36,923 bases of DNA from Oscillospiraceae bacterium. GTDB taxonomy: Bacteria > Bacillota > Clostridia > Oscillospirales > Oscillospiraceae. Below the pieces are notes generated by a model. It ran no database searches and was not told the DNA's origin. It saw only the letters and a program-made list of their open reading frames with translations. The translations under genes were made by a program, and so were the position numbers. Where the stretch lies: assembly GCA_902793285.1 (NCBI GenBank), contig CADBCV010000022.1:1-36923 (forward strand), written 5' to 3'. This document shows, in pieces, positions 24,356 to 30,830 of the stretch; positions within the stretch are counted from its first letter, which is position 1, and each line of letters begins with the position of its first letter.

Positions 24356-25300
24356 TCAGTGCTTGCCCTGGTAGCCGGCGCCGCGCGGGCGGACGGTCTT
24401 CTTGGCGGCGCCTGCGTCGGGGGCGGCGTGGCGGCCTGCGCTGCGGGTGGGCTGCACGTCGTGGGCGCCGGCGGCGCGGGTCCGGACGGGCTTTGCGGCG
24501 GGAGTCTCCGCCTTCGCGGCCGGTGTCTGGCGGCGCGCGGGATAGGTCTTCACGTCCTCATCCGCGGGGGCCTCCTGCGCGCGGCGCGCGGGCTTTGCCG
24601 GGGCGGTCTTCTTCTCGGATTTCCCGAAGGGCAGCGCCGGGAGCCGGAAGGGCAGGACCTCCTGAATGTCAAAGTCCAGGATCAGCCCAAAGATCGGCAC
24701 GTCGGCCCTGCGCCGGAGGAAGCGGAAAATGAACTGGGTGATGAACCACGCGACCGCGCCGGAGAACACGCCGATCACGGCGGCGGCCAGCACGTCGCTG
24801 GGGTAGTGGGCCATCAGGTAGTTGCGGGAGATGGCCATGACGAGCACCGTGATCACCGAGGGGAGAATCCACTTTTTTCCCCGCATCAGGGTGATCGCGG
24901 TCATGCCGGCGGCGCAGGCCGTCACATGGCCCGAGGGGAAGGAGAAGCCGTCCTCCGCCGGGGAGCCGATGGCGTTCCACCAGAGCTCATATTCGATCGA
25001 GCTCTGGAAGGGGCGCGGGCGGGCGACCGTATCCTTGAGGATGATGTTCGTGATGAGCGCGCCGCAGCACACCGCGCCGAAAATGCACACGCCGAGATCG
25101 CGCTTCGACGCCATCAGCATGAACAGCAGCGCGAGCAGGAAGAAGGGCCAGCCCTTCTCCCCCATGAAGGTGATAAAACGCATGAGGAATGTCAGCACCG
25201 GATGGAGATGCTCTCCAAAAAAGTGCTGGATCGACAGAAAGAAATGGTCAAAACCGTGCAGGCTGGTGTCCAGCCAGATGGCCGAGGCGGTTGTCGCCAT
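24356..25300 (-). CDS. PAP2-family membrane phosphatase with basic Ala/Pro tail
   Basis: This is a 314-aa protein. Five to six hydrophobic segments span residues 25-195. The acid-phosphatase motifs are intact: K89-x4-RPRP (to 97), PSGH at 122-125, and SR(159)...H165...D169. It probably dephosphorylates a lipid phosphate such as undecaprenyl-PP or phosphatidic acid outside the membrane. Residues about 225-314 form a low-complexity tail of Ala, Pro, Lys and Arg with no family match by eye. ATG at 25298-25300 is chosen because AGAGGGAT precedes it; the frame remains open to 25396 with no better start. It is transcribed divergently from the RNase gene. Confidence 0.9.
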   Translation of the reverse strand: MATTASAIWLDTSLHGFDHFFLSIQHFFGEHLHPVLTFLMRFITFMGEKGWPFFLLALLFMLMASKRDLGVCIFGAVCCGALITNIILKDTVARPRPFQSSIEYELWWNAIGSPAEDGFSFPSGHVTACAAGMTAITLMRGKKWILPSVITVLVMAISRNYLMAHYPSDVLAAAVIGVFSGAVAWFITQFIFRFLRRRADVPIFGLILDFDIQEVLPFRLPALPFGKSEKKTAPAKPARRAQEAPADEDVKTYPARRQTPAAKAETPAAKPVRTRAAGAHDVQPTRSAGRHAAPDAGAAKKTVRPRGAGYQGKH

Positions 25301-25389
25301 AGAGTATCCCTCTTTTCGTAACGAACTGTAACCACTATACAACAAACTGTAACAAAATGCAAGAGCTTTCCTGCGGGAAATTCGGGAAG

Positions 25390-25418
25390 TTGTCAAGGGC
25401 GGGAAAGCGTGTTATAGT
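25390..25418 (+). promoter_or_regulatory. Sigma-A promoter of the barnase-like gene
   Basis: TTGTCA (25390-25395) is followed after 17 bases by TATAGT (25413-25418). An AT-rich tract of alternating TA lies downstream before the ribosome site. Confidence 0.7.
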
Positions 25419-25467: not shown

Positions 25468-26049
25468 ATGAAACTGAAAAAACTGCTGCCGGTGCTGGTG
25501 CTGGCGCTGCTGCTGGCCTATCTCCTCCTGCCGGGGACCACTGCGCCCGCCCTGCCGGAGACACCCGCCGCGACGAGCGACACCGCGCTCACCCTCGTGA
25601 CCGAGGCCCCGCGCGCGACCGCCGCGCCGAGTCCCACAGCCGCACCGAAACCCACGGCCACGCCGAAACCCACCGCGACCCCGAAGCCCGCCGCGCAGAC
25701 GCTGGATGAAAACGGCAGCTACACCACCAAGGAGGATCTCGCCCTCTACATCCACACCTACGGCCACCTGCCCCCGAACTTTGTCACCAAGAAGGAGGCC
25801 GAAGCCGCCGGCTGGACGGGCGGCTCGCTCGAGCGGGTGCTGCCCGGCATGTGCATCGGCGGCAGCCGCTTCGGCAACTACGAGGGCCAGCTCCCGAGCG
25901 CCAAGGGACGCCGCTGGACCGAGTGCGACGTGAACACGCTCGGCGCGCGCTCCCGGGGGGCGGAGCGCATCGTCTTCTCGAACGACGGCCTCATCTACTA
26001 CACCCCCGACCACTATGAGAGCTTTGAGCTTCTGTATGACGGAAGCTGA
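25468..26049 (+). CDS. Secreted or membrane-anchored barnase-type ribonuclease
   Basis: This is a 193-aa protein. Residues 1-22 are a signal peptide or anchor, and 25-76 form a Thr/Ala/Pro/Lys spacer with three TPKPTA-type repeats. Residues 83-190 are a complete microbial RNase (barnase-like) domain: LALYIHTYGHLPPNF, KKEAEAAGW, IGGSRFGN-EGQLP, GRRWTECDVN and YYTPDHYESF. The four catalytic residues of barnase (E73, R83, R87, H102) correspond to E152, R163, R167 and H182. The ATG at 25468 lies ten bases after AAGGAG. No barstar-like inhibitor is seen. It precedes spo0A, and two 0A boxes start seven bases after its stop. It is likely an exported RNase for nutrient release or competition. Confidence 0.9.
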   Translation: MKLKKLLPVLVLALLLAYLLLPGTTAPALPETPAATSDTALTLVTEAPRATAAPSPTAAPKPTATPKPTATPKPAAQTLDENGSYTTKEDLALYIHTYGHLPPNFVTKKEAEAAGWTGGSLERVLPGMCIGGSRFGNYEGQLPSAKGRRWTECDVNTLGARSRGAERIVFSNDGLIYYTPDHYESFELLYDGS

Positions 26050-26055
26050 CCCCCG

Positions 26056-26072
26056 TTCGACAGGATTCGACA
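26056..26072 (+). promoter_or_regulatory. Two direct 0A boxes upstream of spo0A
   Basis: TTCGACA occurs at 26056-26062 and 26066-26072, ten bases apart, each the exact reverse complement of the 0A-box consensus TGTCGAA. One helical turn spacing suits binding of Spo0A dimers. They lie upstream of the spo0A promoter at 26113-26141. Confidence 0.75.
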
Positions 26073-26284: not shown

Positions 26285-27079
26285 ATGGAAACCAGGATAC
26301 GCATACTCACCGCGGACCCGAACCGCGAATTCTGCCGCCAGCTCAAGGAGCTTATGACGGCCGAGGGGGATATGGAGATCGTCGGCATGGCGGCCGACGG
26401 GATAGACGCGCTGGAGCAGGCGGCGGAGCTCAAGCCCGATCTCATCCTGCTGGAGCTGGTGCTGCCGAAGCTGGACGGGCTGGAGGTGCTGCGCCGCCTG
26501 CGGGAGCGGAGCGCGGCCTGCCACGTGATCGTGCTGTCGGGCTTTGTCAACGCCAAGGTCATCGCGGAGTGCTCCGACTGCGGGGCCGACTACTTCATCC
26601 CCAAGCCCTGCGATGTGCAGGCCCTCATTGCCCGCGTCCGCCAGCTCAATTTTGACATGCCCCGCACGCCCGGCGTCGGCATCGACTTCCGGCGCGACGC
26701 GCCCCAGCCGCCCACCGACGGGAATCTCGAGGCCGTCGTCACCGACATTATCCATGAGATCGGCGTGCCCGCCCACATCAAGGGCTACCAGTACCTGCGG
26801 GAGGCCATCATCCTCACCATCCAGGACATGGACATGATCAACGCCGTCACCAAGGTCCTCTATCCTGAGGTGGCCAGGCGCTTCGGCACCACCCCCTCGC
26901 GCGTCGAGCGCGCCATCCGCCACGCCATCGAGGTGGCCTGGGACCGCGGCGACGTGGAGACCCTGCAAAGGTTCTTCGGCTACACCGTGAGCGGCATCAA
27001 GGGAAAACCGACGAATAGCGAATTTATCGCGATGATCGCGGACAATCTCTCCCTCAAACGCAAGCACGCCGTGCGGTGA
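26285..27079 (+). CDS. spo0A: Spo0A-like response regulator with atypical receiver
   Basis: This 264-aa sporulation master regulator homologue has a receiver at 1-120 and a Spo0A DNA-binding domain at 148-262 ([55 protein letters not shown]). The receiver is odd. The usual ADDN is ADPN (P12 in place of the metal-binding Asp), and the phosphoacceptor Asp of LLLD-x-x-x-P is Glu (E57 in [13 protein letters not shown]). The switch Ser (S85) and Lys (K107) remain. The ATG at 26285 follows GGGAGG. spoIVB, the usual upstream neighbour, is absent; the RNase gene replaces it. The many 0A boxes indicate autoregulation. Phosphorylation-independent or Glu-mimicked activity is an inference. Confidence 0.93.
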
Positions 27080-27740: not shown

Positions 27741-28136
27741 TCATAACTTTTGCAGGTAGTTTTTCACTTCTCCGACAAAATACCCCGCGTTTTGGACCTG
27801 TGCGGTAACGTCTGCCTTGGACGCAATAAAGAAGTCGTCGTAATCGCTGTCGGTTCTCAGGTCAAACAGCTCGCGGATGGTATCGGACATTTTGCTTTCA
27901 AACGTGCCGGTTCTGATATACAGGCGGCGAAACTCGGAAATGATGCCGCTGTGTTTCTTGGAATCATATCCATCGTATGCCAGCACCGCGCGCATGGCAT
28001 GAAAGACCGCATAGTAGGCGCGGTTTGCGGCGCTTTTGTAGCTTTCACGCTCCAGCAGAAGCACGGCGTCGGCAAGACATTCCTCCGCTTTCTCAAGGCG
28101 CACGTTGGAAATGGCGCGTTTGTTTTCAAGCGACAT
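27741..28136 (-). CDS. HEPN-domain toxin (HepT-like)
   Basis: This 131-aa all-helical HEPN protein is of the type normally encoded with an MNT nucleotidyltransferase. The HEPN motif is R39-x6-H46 in NRAYYAVFH, the pair of residues that gives RNase activity in the family. KKHSGIISEFRRLYI and LFDLRTDSDYDDFFIAS are further family features. The ATG at 28136 has GGAGGGGGTG just upstream; a longer open frame to 28256 overlaps the antitoxin and is not used. It overlaps the mntA end by 11 bases. The base composition of the pair looks lower in GC than the neighbours, suggesting acquisition. Toxin activity is inferred from the family. Confidence 0.85.
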   Translation of the reverse strand: MSLENKRAISNVRLEKAEECLADAVLLLERESYKSAANRAYYAVFHAMRAVLAYDGYDSKKHSGIISEFRRLYIRTGTFESKMSDTIRELFDLRTDSDYDDFFIASKADVTAQVQNAGYFVGEVKNYLQKL

Positions 28137-28464
28137 AGCGCACCCCCTCCGTTCTGACATTGCGATAGAACGGCAGATCGTCTGCAAACTGCGTGAAGAG
28201 CTTGAGCGGCTTGATCGTGACGGAGACGGTGACGTCATATCGGAGGCAGAGCTCACTCACAACATGGGAGATCGCGCTTCTGTATGAGGAAATCTCCGGC
28301 CAGTCCAGATCCACGGTCAGGAGGATATCGACGTCGGATTCCTCGTCGTAATCCCCGCGGGCGTAGGAGCCGTAGAGATACGCGTCATGGATCGGGATGG
28401 GCAAAATGGCCGAGCAGCCCTCATACACTTCGCCCAGGATCGTGATGGCGTCTTCCCTGCACAT
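28126..28464 (-). CDS. MNT-domain nucleotidyltransferase antitoxin (MntA-like)
   Basis: This 112-aa minimal nucleotidyltransferase has the hallmark GSYARG (from G32-S33) and DVD (D44-x-D46). These bind metal and ATP in AMPylating antitoxins such as MntA, which modify a tyrosine of the HEPN partner. A clear third acidic residue in the later strand (YDVTVSVTI) is not visible, as in some family members. The ATG at 28464 follows GGAGGTGA at perfect spacing. It lies upstream of, and overlaps by 11 bases, the HEPN gene, the usual order for this toxin-antitoxin type. The pair lies beside repeats and the transposase relic. Confidence 0.87.
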   Translation of the reverse strand: MCREDAITILGEVYEGCSAILPIPIHDAYLYGSYARGDYDEESDVDILLTVDLDWPEISSYRSAISHVVSELCLRYDVTVSVTIKPLKLFTQFADDLPFYRNVRTEGVRYVA

Positions 28465-28541: not shown

Positions 28542-30830
28542 TCACGTCCGCACGGGGGCGCTGAGGAAGAGGGTCTCGAAGCTCTCCACCGGCATGGGCT
28601 TTGCGAAGTAGTAGCCCTGGAAGAGGCGGCAGCCCATCCCGCTGAGCATCCGGTACTGATCCTCGGTCTCCACGCCCTCGGTGAGGGAGAGGATGCCGAG
28701 ATCGCGGGTCATGTTCATCACGTTTCGGAGAATGGTCTGCGAGCGCAGGCCGTCCTTTGCGCGGGTGAGGAAGACCATATCGACCTTCACCACGTCCACC
28801 GGCATGTCCTTCAGCATGTTGAGCGAGGAGTAGCCGCTGCCGAAATCGTCCATCTCCACAAGAAAGCCCTCGTCCTTGAGGCGGGAGAGGATGGCGATAC
28901 GCTCGGCGCTGTCGGTCATCATGACGGTCTCCGTGATCTCCACGCGCAGGCGGGAGGGCGGGACGCCGTACTCCTTCACAATGCCCTTGAGCTCGGCGAA
29001 GACGTCCATGAAGTAGAAATCCTTCGGCGAGATGTTGATGGACAGGAAGATATCGGAGATCCCCATCGCCTGCCAGCGGGCGAGGATCTCACACGCGCAG
29101 CGCCACATGTAGCGGTCCACATCCGCGATCATGCCGTTTTTCTCAAACACCGGCACAAAGCGCCCCGGCGGCAGGAAGCCCAGCGCGGGGTGGTTCCAGC
29201 GCACCAGCGCCTCCGCCCCGACGACGCGCCCCTCGCCGTCCACCATGGCCTGGAGATAGGGGCAGATCTGCCGCTCGGCCAGGGCGTCCGGGAGCTCGGC
29301 CGTGATGCGCTGGTCCCAGAGGGCCTTCTCGCGCATGGTGTCGTCATAGAGGGCAACGCGCTTTTTATAGTCCGTCTTCACGGTGGCGAGGGCCATGTGC
29401 GCGCGGTCGAACATGACGGACACGTCGATGTCCCGCTCCGTGACCCGGTAGGAGCCCTGGTGGATGATGACCCGGTGCGAGCGGGTTTCGTTTTTCACCA
29501 TGAACTCGGTCATATAGCGGCTGGCCTTTTCAAGGTCGAAGTCGCCTTCCTCCAGGCAGAGCCCGAAGCAGTCGGCGGAGAGCCTGCCGTAGAGCGCGCC
29601 CGGGGGCAGATTCTCACGCAGGCTGTCGGCAAAGCAGCGGAGCGTGTAATCGCCGAAGTCCTTCCCGAAGATGTCGTTGATCATCTTGAAGTCGTTGATG
29701 TCGAGATAAGAGATATAGTAGATCTTGTCCGGGTTTGCAAGCAGCGTCTCGCGGATGCGGGCGTAGAGGTATTCCTTGGTGTAAAGCCCCGTGAGCGTGT
29801 CGTGGTTTGCGTTGTAGCGCTCCTGCCGCAGGGCCTCCTCCTGGGCGGTGTTGTCCCGGATCGTGAGCAGGGAGCCGACGGCGCGCCCCTTCCGGTCAAA
29901 CATGCGGCGCTTATCCAGGGCGTAGTAGCGGGTACTGCCGCCGACCGTCAGGATACGCTCACAGGCCCACTCGTCCCCCTCCGGCGTGAGATCGGGGAAG
30001 ATCTCCCGCAGCCTCTCGCCGCAGCGGTCATTTTCCGACTCCTCCAGCTCCAGAAAGCGTGCGCCCTGGCGGTTCACCCAGACGCAGCGCTCGCCGATAT
30101 CGAAGAAATAGAGCGCCTCCGCAAGCCCGGAGGCCACGTTTGCCAGCATGTGATCCAAAAGCCGGAGCGGGCGGTAGTGCAGGGAGAAATAATAGACCAG
30201 AAGCCCGAAGACGCCGAAGCCGATCATGGACCGGTCGATGGGCGTGCGGGAGAAGATATAGAAGGTCTCCCAGATGCCGGAAAAAATCATGGAGAGGAAG
30301 ATGATGGAATAGCGCTCGGAATAGATCCGCGGCGCGCGCAGGGCCTTCACCAGGAAGATCACGAGCACCGCGAGGAAGATCCCGTAATCCAGCAGCCGGT
30401 GGATGGTCTGCCCGGCAAGGGGGACAAGGCGGTAATAGGGCGCGCCGTAGGCCATCACCATCTCGGTCGTGAAGGCGTGGCCGAAGACGGGGTTCAGCAG
30501 AAGCTGCACGGCGTCGAGAATGAGCAGGGCGTAGACAAAGCGCTTGAGATGCACATTCGGCCATGAGAGCTCGCAGTATTGGAGCGTGAAGTGCAGCACG
30601 CCGAACATCACGTAGTCCATGCCCAGAAAATAGATATAGCAGCCGAGCGTGGCAAGCCCCCTTGTGTGCGCGGCGATGATGAGCAGGTTCCCCAGCACGG
30701 GCGGAATGAGGGCCGAGAGCAGGATCACCACCGCGGGGGCGATCGCCTTTTTCGAGCGGCGGGCAAAATACGCGCACACAACCAGGGTGAGGGCCAGGAG
30801 AAGAACGACAACAGCGATTGCGGTGCGCAT
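28542..30830 (-). CDS. 7TM-PAS-GGDEF(degenerate)-EAL cyclic di-GMP phosphodiesterase
   Basis: This is a 762-aa protein. Residues 1-215 form seven hydrophobic segments of the histidine-kinase 7TM type and 225-330 are PAS-like. Residues 335-495 are a GGDEF domain in which the active-site GGDEF is SADCF (residues 418-422), so cyclase activity should be absent. Residues 510-750 are an EAL domain with every catalytic motif: EAL (540-542), N599, E631, DD 661-662, K682, E718 and Q738. It should hydrolyse c-di-GMP, with the degenerate GGDEF perhaps sensing GTP. ATG at 30830 follows AAGGAG. It is a single-gene unit from the promoter at 31018-31047. Confidence 0.93.
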   Translation of the reverse strand: MRTAIAVVVLLLALTLVVCAYFARRSKKAIAPAVVILLSALIPPVLGNLLIIAAHTRGLATLGCYIYFLGMDYVMFGVLHFTLQYCELSWPNVHLKRFVYALLILDAVQLLLNPVFGHAFTTEMVMAYGAPYYRLVPLAGQTIHRLLDYGIFLAVLVIFLVKALRAPRIYSERYSIIFLSMIFSGIWETFYIFSRTPIDRSMIGFGVFGLLVYYFSLHYRPLRLLDHMLANVASGLAEALYFFDIGERCVWVNRQGARFLELEESENDRCGERLREIFPDLTPEGDEWACERILTVGGSTRYYALDKRRMFDRKGRAVGSLLTIRDNTAQEEALRQERYNANHDTLTGLYTKEYLYARIRETLLANPDKIYYISYLDINDFKMINDIFGKDFGDYTLRCFADSLRENLPPGALYGRLSADCFGLCLEEGDFDLEKASRYMTEFMVKNETRSHRVIIHQGSYRVTERDIDVSVMFDRAHMALATVKTDYKKRVALYDDTMREKALWDQRITAELPDALAERQICPYLQAMVDGEGRVVGAEALVRWNHPALGFLPPGRFVPVFEKNGMIADVDRYMWRCACEILARWQAMGISDIFLSINISPKDFYFMDVFAELKGIVKEYGVPPSRLRVEITETVMMTDSAERIAILSRLKDEGFLVEMDDFGSGYSSLNMLKDMPVDVVKVDMVFLTRAKDGLRSQTILRNVMNMTRDLGILSLTEGVETEDQYRMLSGMGCRLFQGYYFAKPMPVESFETLFLSAPVRT

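Follow-up and report, generated by a model that had tools for sequence, protein, structure and literature searches.

In the textbook account, endospore formation begins with the phosphorylation of Spo0A, and this is commonly assumed for all spore formers. An earlier note on a spo0A gene from the Oscillospiraceae, a family of common, mostly uncultured gut bacteria, had read a Glu codon at the phosphoacceptor of the receiver and a Pro codon at a metal ligand. This gene lies in the window, the whole stretch of 36,923 nucleotides that was analyzed here, and it raises the question of whether a sporulation regulator of this kind can act without a phosphate switch and whether it still governs sporulation.

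The spo0A gene and its phosphorylation pocket

The reading frame opens with the ATG at 26285 and closes with a stop codon at 27077-27079. Its product was assigned to Spo0A by a match to the TIGR02875 profile that covered residues 4 to 260 and exceeded the cut-off of 200 bits (Table 1); the receiver matched PF00072 with 79.4 bits. The AlphaFold2 model had a mean pLDDT of 89.2 and a pTM of 0.50, indicating that the domains are reliable and that their mutual arrangement is not. Comparison of this model by Foldseek with 1qmp_A, the phosphorylated Spo0A receiver, gave an rmsd of 0.9 and a TMt of 0.90. The DNA-binding domain matched the fold of the 1fc3 and 1lq1 chains (Foldseek) with 59 to 65% identity, and an alignment of 56 family rows had most of its invariant columns in this domain.

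Both replacements in the pocket were confirmed, by the codons and by an HMMER alignment in which the reference was 9phz_E, the solved receiver of B. subtilis. In this alignment, the second Asp of ADDN was paired with Pro12 and the acceptor Asp of LVLDI with Glu57; we take these two Asp residues to be Asp11 and Asp56 in B. subtilis numbering. The description of the remainder of the protein as intact also held, with a full-length PF08769 match and with Ser85 and Lys107 in place. A phosphorylatable receiver contains two acids, an acceptor Asp, a Ser or Thr and a Lys; Pro12 and Glu57 occupy two of these five places. The protein falls within the definition of a pseudo-receiver as one that is missing any of the five residues (PMC12632262) and, having no acceptor Asp, is also an aspartate-less receiver.

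Use of another Asp as the acceptor was ruled out: the B. subtilis protein likewise has Asp at the places of Asp52 and Asp64 and, hence, neither takes the acceptor place. Sequencing error is unlikely, as the same Pro and Glu were detected in G174, a genome of the same genus (Spo0A 87% identical), and in the metagenome-assembled genome RUG14036 (L203, Spo0A 88% identical). The Spo0A proteins of these two differ at 2 of 264 residues, indicating that the two records are separate but stem from a single near lineage. No second canonical Spo0A was found in the assembly, which is 79.5% complete, and G174 (95% complete) had one Spo0A match; second matches, counted by eye, were present in 30 of 173 family genomes. 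The sole other Spo0A_C match of the source genome was a partial domain (L002, G000:C13:20832-24011, 1329-1701; C13:22332-22511) covering profile positions from about 42 to 104. An overlapping frame may encode its N-terminal part, and an HTH_17 gene and a fragment of a phage-integrase N-terminal domain lie nearby. This partial stand-alone domain recalls the receiver-less Spo0A of phages.

Table 1. Positions, strands and supporting evidence for spo0A, its pocket codons and surrounding features in the window
Feature	Position	Strand	Basis or remark
PAP2-family membrane phosphatase	24356-25396	-	69 bits
Barnase-type ribonuclease	25468-26049	+	PF00545, 68 bits; immediately upstream of spo0A
Two putative 0A-box cores, TGTCGAA	26056-26062, 26066-26072	-	Motif scan
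Third putative 0A-box core, TGTCGAA	26163-26169	-	Motif scan
spo0A, 264 aa	26285-27079	+	TIGR02875, 309.6 bits; Response_reg and Spo0A_C (Pfam)
Receiver domain, residues 4-122, pseudo-receiver	26294-26650	+	Foldseek of AlphaFold2 model; pentad incomplete
Codon 11, GAC, Asp, first acid	26315-26317	+	Codon read
Codon 12, CCG, Pro12 at second acid, a direct metal ligand	26318-26320	+	Codon and alignment to 9phz_E
Codon 57, GAG, Glu57 at phosphoacceptor	26453-26455	+	Codon and alignment to 9phz_E
Codon 85, TCG, Ser85, conserved pocket Ser	26537-26539	+	Ser/Thr in 125/130 family members
Codon 107, AAG, Lys107	26603-26605	+	Codon read
Codons 107-109, Lys-Pro-Cys, conserved Lys107 and family Cys at K+2	26603-26611	+	Lys in 129/130 family members
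C-terminal DNA-binding domain, residues 146-262	26720-27070	+	PF08769, 155.5 bits, full length
HEPN protein and nucleotidyltransferase, small overlapping genes	27741-28464	-	PF05168, 80 bits; PF01909, 38.5 bits
GGDEF and EAL cyclic-di-GMP protein	28542-30830	-	Downstream of spo0A

The receiver in the family, order and class

Within the GTDB family of the source genome, Spo0A was detected at an E value of ≤1e-20 in 173 of 200 genomes. From these, 131 genes of 130 genomes were taken and a second copy (L122) was dropped, leaving 130 genes from 89 genera; named matches include Oscillospiraceae, Flavonifractor, Oscillibacter, Lawsonibacter and Pseudoflavonifractor. This sampling was not random, the 30 best matches being automatic and the remainder picked by hand with the weakest left out, and the 43 Spo0A-bearing genomes outside the set include the lowest-scoring ones. 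The sample from other orders of the class (64 genes, 63 genomes) consisted of the 30 best Spo0A-profile matches plus 34 picked from lower rows of the match list, a selection that favors canonical proteins; in the class sample, 34 of 147 genomes were without a match over the profile cut-off. Residues were counted on a MAFFT alignment.

The second acid was absent from all 130 family members and present in 59 of the 64 genes from other orders. Its position was occupied in the family by Ala (50), Ser (27), Pro (21), Gly (12), Thr (11), Gln (4), Val (2), and Met, Asn and Cys (1 each). At the acceptor, 105 family members had Asp, 24 (from 14 genera) had Glu and 1 had Gly. Genes from other orders had no acceptor Glu (0/64), and retained Asp in 63, Ser/Thr in 62 and Lys in 62 cases. 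The other pocket residues were kept in the family, with the first acid in 127/130, Ser/Thr in 125/130 and Lys in 129/130. A complete pentad was, hence, found in 0/130 family members, compared to 57/64 genes of other orders and 14/45 genes from the remaining families of this order. The latter group (44 genomes, 22 families) had the second acid in 25 genes and an acceptor of Asp in 33, Glu in 7 and another residue in 5, while 80 named loci, a set not exclusive to the family, included 19 with the second acid, 16 with an acceptor Glu and 18 with a full pentad. Alteration of the receiver is, thus, widespread in the order and extends to every family member examined. The designation as a pseudo-receiver, therefore, stands but not as a feature of one genome, the second acid being lost in 130 of 130 family members. 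Alignment of relatives, by which the earlier note had hoped to place the two changes, indicated that the Glu change recurs (24/130) and that Pro is one of ten residues at the ligand site. Receivers that are more degraded still were observed in five genes from other families of the order (L163, L322, L328, L353 and L354), in which the pocket Lys is Pro, Leu, Met, Pro and Ile, respectively; three of these five have Asn or Glu as the acceptor.

Further positions around the pocket were characteristic of the family. Position 60 was Leu in 126/130 members and Met elsewhere, position 87 (Ser+2) was Phe in 119/130 and Val elsewhere, and position 109 (K+2) was Cys in 114/130, as against Cys in 4/64 and Phe in 45/64 genes of other orders. 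The window protein contains Leu60, Phe87 and Cys109. Phe at K+2 biases CheY toward the inactive state (Bourret et al. 2025, PMC12632262, in the part available), and loss of this Phe in the family is, hence, suggestive only. The DNA-binding domain also has a few family-specific residues, such as Asp223 and Gln228.

A fourth such position, an acid (Glu/Asp) at residue 14, was found in 118/130 family members, 7/45 genes from elsewhere in the order and 0/64 genes of other orders. This pattern could be due to a relocated metal site, whereby the acid at position 14 takes over the metal, the acceptor Asp is phosphorylated in most members and only the Glu57 lineages have left this scheme; presence of the acceptor Asp in 105 of 130 members and the nearly invariant Lys and Ser/Thr are in keeping with such a site. 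The window protein, however, has Arg14 and Glu57 and, hence, neither feature. Of three independent pairs on the tree, about one is informative for the association between ligand loss and an acid at position 14, and the change of the acceptor from Asp to Glu recurs while sporulation genes stay. A relocated site is, in our view, fairly unlikely.

The receiver has diverged rapidly and yet is under purifying selection, while the DNA-binding domain is conserved. For pairs of proteins with DNA-binding domains of 75 to 85% identity, receiver identity was 38% within the family (6,120 pairs), compared to 64% outside it, in other orders (304 pairs). Comparison of the window gene to L004 (G174), L203, L204 and L205 gave dN/dS values of 0.26, 0.23, 0.26 and 0.20 for the receiver and of 0.13, 0.09, 0.06 and 0.07 for the DNA-binding domain. 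On a quick-method tree that comprised 254 rows from the family, the order, the named loci and a few outgroups and omitted the pocket columns, Asp and Glu at the acceptor required at least 22 interchanges, with nine independent pairs on well-supported branches, a count that does not distinguish gain of Glu from loss. Half of the 24 Glu members have Pro at the ligand position and 12 of the 21 Pro members have Glu, but coupling of Pro12 to Glu57 was not upheld, as informative pairs were too few: the nine split on average into 0.9 changing the same way, 0.8 the opposite way and 7.3 with no difference.

Sporulation genes in the source genome and the family

Loss of sporulation, which the earlier note had offered as one outcome, was unsupported in the source genome. 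SpoIVA (630 bits), SigE, a SigK-type sigma factor, a SigF-type sigma factor accompanied by SpoIIAB, and a SigH-type gene were detected, the SigF-type and SigH-type matches being below curated cut-offs, though sigG is split by an insertion. Its 5′ piece (G000:C4:128951-129238; L293, L357) matches positions 2 to 97 of the SigG profile and is followed by ∼30 kb of foreign-looking genes up to the contig end. The 3′ piece (G000:C29:2461-2970; L361), located on another contig, matches positions 84 to 253 and directly follows a gene for a 485-aa serine recombinase with Resolvase, Recombinase and Zn_ribbon_recom domains. Elements that are excised during sporulation end at a serine recombinase gene, and the insert looks like a skin-like element present in sigG instead of sigK. 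The best SigG match was similarly low (E values of 1e-80 to 1e-69) in 17 of the 164 SigG-bearing family genomes, the source genome included, and two other low-scoring matches cover profile positions 91 to 253.

SpoIVA was present in 170 of 200 family genomes and in 119 of 128 good genomes, and SigG was detected at E values of ≤1e-62 in 164 of 200, with 0 over the strict cut-off of the profile. Spo0A and SpoIVA were both present in 161 of the 200 genomes and both absent in 18, with Spo0A alone absent in 9 and SpoIVA alone absent in 12 (Fisher P value of 1.2e-11 for absence sets compiled by hand, uncorrected for kinship and genome incompleteness). All three of Spo0A, SpoIVA and SigG were absent in 17 genomes, and genomes without SpoIVA and SigG tended to lack Spo0A as well. 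Genomes with an acceptor Glu (n = 24) had SpoIVA in 22 cases, SigG in 22 and both in 20; those with an acceptor Asp (n = 105) had SpoIVA in 98, SigG in 96 and both in 92. The genome G109, which belongs to the genus of the window and is 95% complete, had no Spo0A, SpoIVA or SigG match at the thresholds used, possibly due to a recent and complete loss of sporulation.

Published accounts of sporulation in these bacteria differ. Oscillibacter is described as asporogenous in the available portion of Galperin et al. 2012 (PMC3533761), and the SpoMAG classifier, applied to 34 Oscillospirales genomes from one host set, predicted spore formation for a single one (PMC12536801, accessible text). Sporulation potential was seen in Oscillospiraceae, with Spo0A being used as a sporulation marker, in the accessible part of PMC11536998. 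No record of spores from a Glu57 family member was found in the literature covered.

These data bear on the possibility that host-bound bacteria are losing sporulation and that the receiver is drifting. Decay of this kind would be consistent with the fast divergence of the receivers, the 17 genomes devoid of Spo0A, SpoIVA and SigG (G109 of the same genus among them), the interrupted sigG of the source genome and the few Oscillospirales spore formers predicted by SpoMAG. The receiver is, however, under purifying selection, with Lys, Ser/Thr and the first acid near-invariant and the DNA-binding domain conserved; SpoIVA persists in the large majority of good genomes; Spo0A is mostly gone where SpoIVA and SigG are gone; and the sigG insert has a serine recombinase gene at its end, as have elements excised during sporulation. 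We consider decay to be unlikely. A role of Spo0A outside sporulation, akin to its control of other stationary-phase genes elsewhere (PMC11210211, part available) and compatible with the 12 genomes that have Spo0A without SpoIVA, is highly improbable given that the two genes occur together or are missing together in all but 21 of the 200 genomes.

Control of Spo0A in the family

The reading that we favor, and place just on the probable side, is that a pseudo-receiver Spo0A is a family-wide feature that is still tied to sporulation and that, at least in the Glu57 lineages, Spo0A is not activated by Asp phosphorylation. As a metal-ligand acid has been lost in every sampled family member, Mg-dependent Asp phosphorylation is probably no longer the essential switch, although Spo0A would still start sporulation in the family. 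Its activity may be set mainly by the amount made, through auto-regulation via its own 0A boxes, and also by receiver-receiver or receiver-partner contacts. In the Glu57 lineages, Asp phosphorylation at the acceptor site would be impossible and Glu57, together with Ser85 and Lys107, probably holds the pocket in a standing, partly active state. Phosphate-free control is likely in the Glu lineages and less settled in the Asp lineages. The proposal that the protein acts without classical phosphotransfer was, thus, retained as the best reading. The points against it are the kept pocket residues, the HisKA proteins described below, the SpoMAG predictions, the asporogenous Oscillibacter and the split sigG. 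Near-invariance of the first acid, Ser/Thr and Lys along with the acceptor Asp of 105 members suggests that the pocket is used, and phosphate may still be accepted by most family members. A broader proposal, that the family and, to a lesser extent, the order freed Spo0A from phosphorylation control and gave it a new pocket, with input arriving via the nearly fixed Cys at K+2 or a partner protein, is tentative and leans toward the doubtful.

Searches for phosphorelay partners detected a Spo0E-like phosphatase at an E value of ≤0.001 in 0 of 150 family genomes, including the source genome, in 0 of 147 order genomes and in 56 of 147 class genomes, these samples being overlapping. For 69 non-family genes, Spo0E was present in the genomes of 38 of 57 with a full pentad and 0 of 12 without one (uncorrected for kinship). 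The Spo0E-type phosphatase that is common, if not universal, in phosphorelay-controlled systems was, therefore, not detected in the family, but this absence is a weak sign of lost phosphorylation because the genomes of 19 of the 57 full-pentad genes were also without Spo0E. Kinases, another item for which a check had been proposed, persist in the source genome, where a HisKA domain occurs in at least eight proteins, and kinase input to Spo0A is, hence, possible.

Three of the four copies in the window of TGTCGAA, which we take to be the 0A-box core motif, fall within 230 bases upstream of spo0A. Only this placement stands out, as the core was not enriched over the whole window (4 copies versus 4.2 expected) and neither was the longer TTTTGTCGAAW with up to two mismatches (12 matches versus 9.7 expected). 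A core was present within 300 bases upstream of spo0A for 78/130 family members, 18/44 in the order's remaining families and 33/62 in other orders, and inside spo0A for 11/130 family members. Permuted cores occurred upstream in a mean of 3.4/130 and 1.7/62 cases, with single permutations reaching 47 and 33. The upstream cores and the co-absence with SpoIVA and SigG are indirect, sequence-based indications that the window Spo0A may act as a sporulation regulator.

The window protein resembles Bacillus Spo0A and that of canonical Clostridia (TIGR02875; 1qmp, 1fc3 and 1lq1) in domain order, both folds, a DNA-binding domain with 59 to 65% identity, the first acid, Ser and Lys, and the upstream 0A-box cores. 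It differs in the family-wide loss of the second acid, its acceptor Glu, the Cys that replaces Phe at K+2 in most family members and the lack of a detectable Spo0E. Its receiver shares the absence of at least one of five pocket residues with the pseudo-receivers and aspartate-less receivers reviewed by Bourret et al. (2025, PMC12632262), among which, according to the available part of this review, loss of the second acid and an acceptor Glu are common. Unlike these, the protein is a sporulation master regulator that is changed in every sampled family member; the main text of the review does not mention Spo0A, Clostridia or sporulation. Receiver-less Spo0A proteins of gut phages offer another parallel, as their DNA-binding domain is possibly freed from host signals (PMC10294663, from the portion available), but the phage forms have no receiver, whereas that of the Oscillospiraceae is kept and under selection. 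No description of the altered Oscillospiraceae pocket was found in the literature covered, which leaves out most subscription journals and makes the novelty provisional. Ruminococcaceae, Oscillibacter and Ethanoligenens do not appear in the accessible main text of a 2018 paper on Spo0 evolution (PMC6136694), and the one paper found that mentions both Spo0A and pseudo-receiver concerns C. difficile colony morphology (PMC12393383).

If Spo0A is not phosphate-switched in Oscillospiraceae, the Bacillus and C. difficile models would not carry over to this family. Most of the sampled relatives keep spore-forming genes, and sporulation in them may start differently from the textbook. The mechanisms of pseudo-receivers remain a mystery according to the part of the 2025 review that was available (PMC12632262), and the repeated Asp-to-Glu changes of this family provide material for their study.

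The genes surrounding spo0A are listed in Table 1. The small overlapping HEPN and nucleotidyltransferase genes have, as judged from their domains, the make-up of a putative toxin-antitoxin pair.
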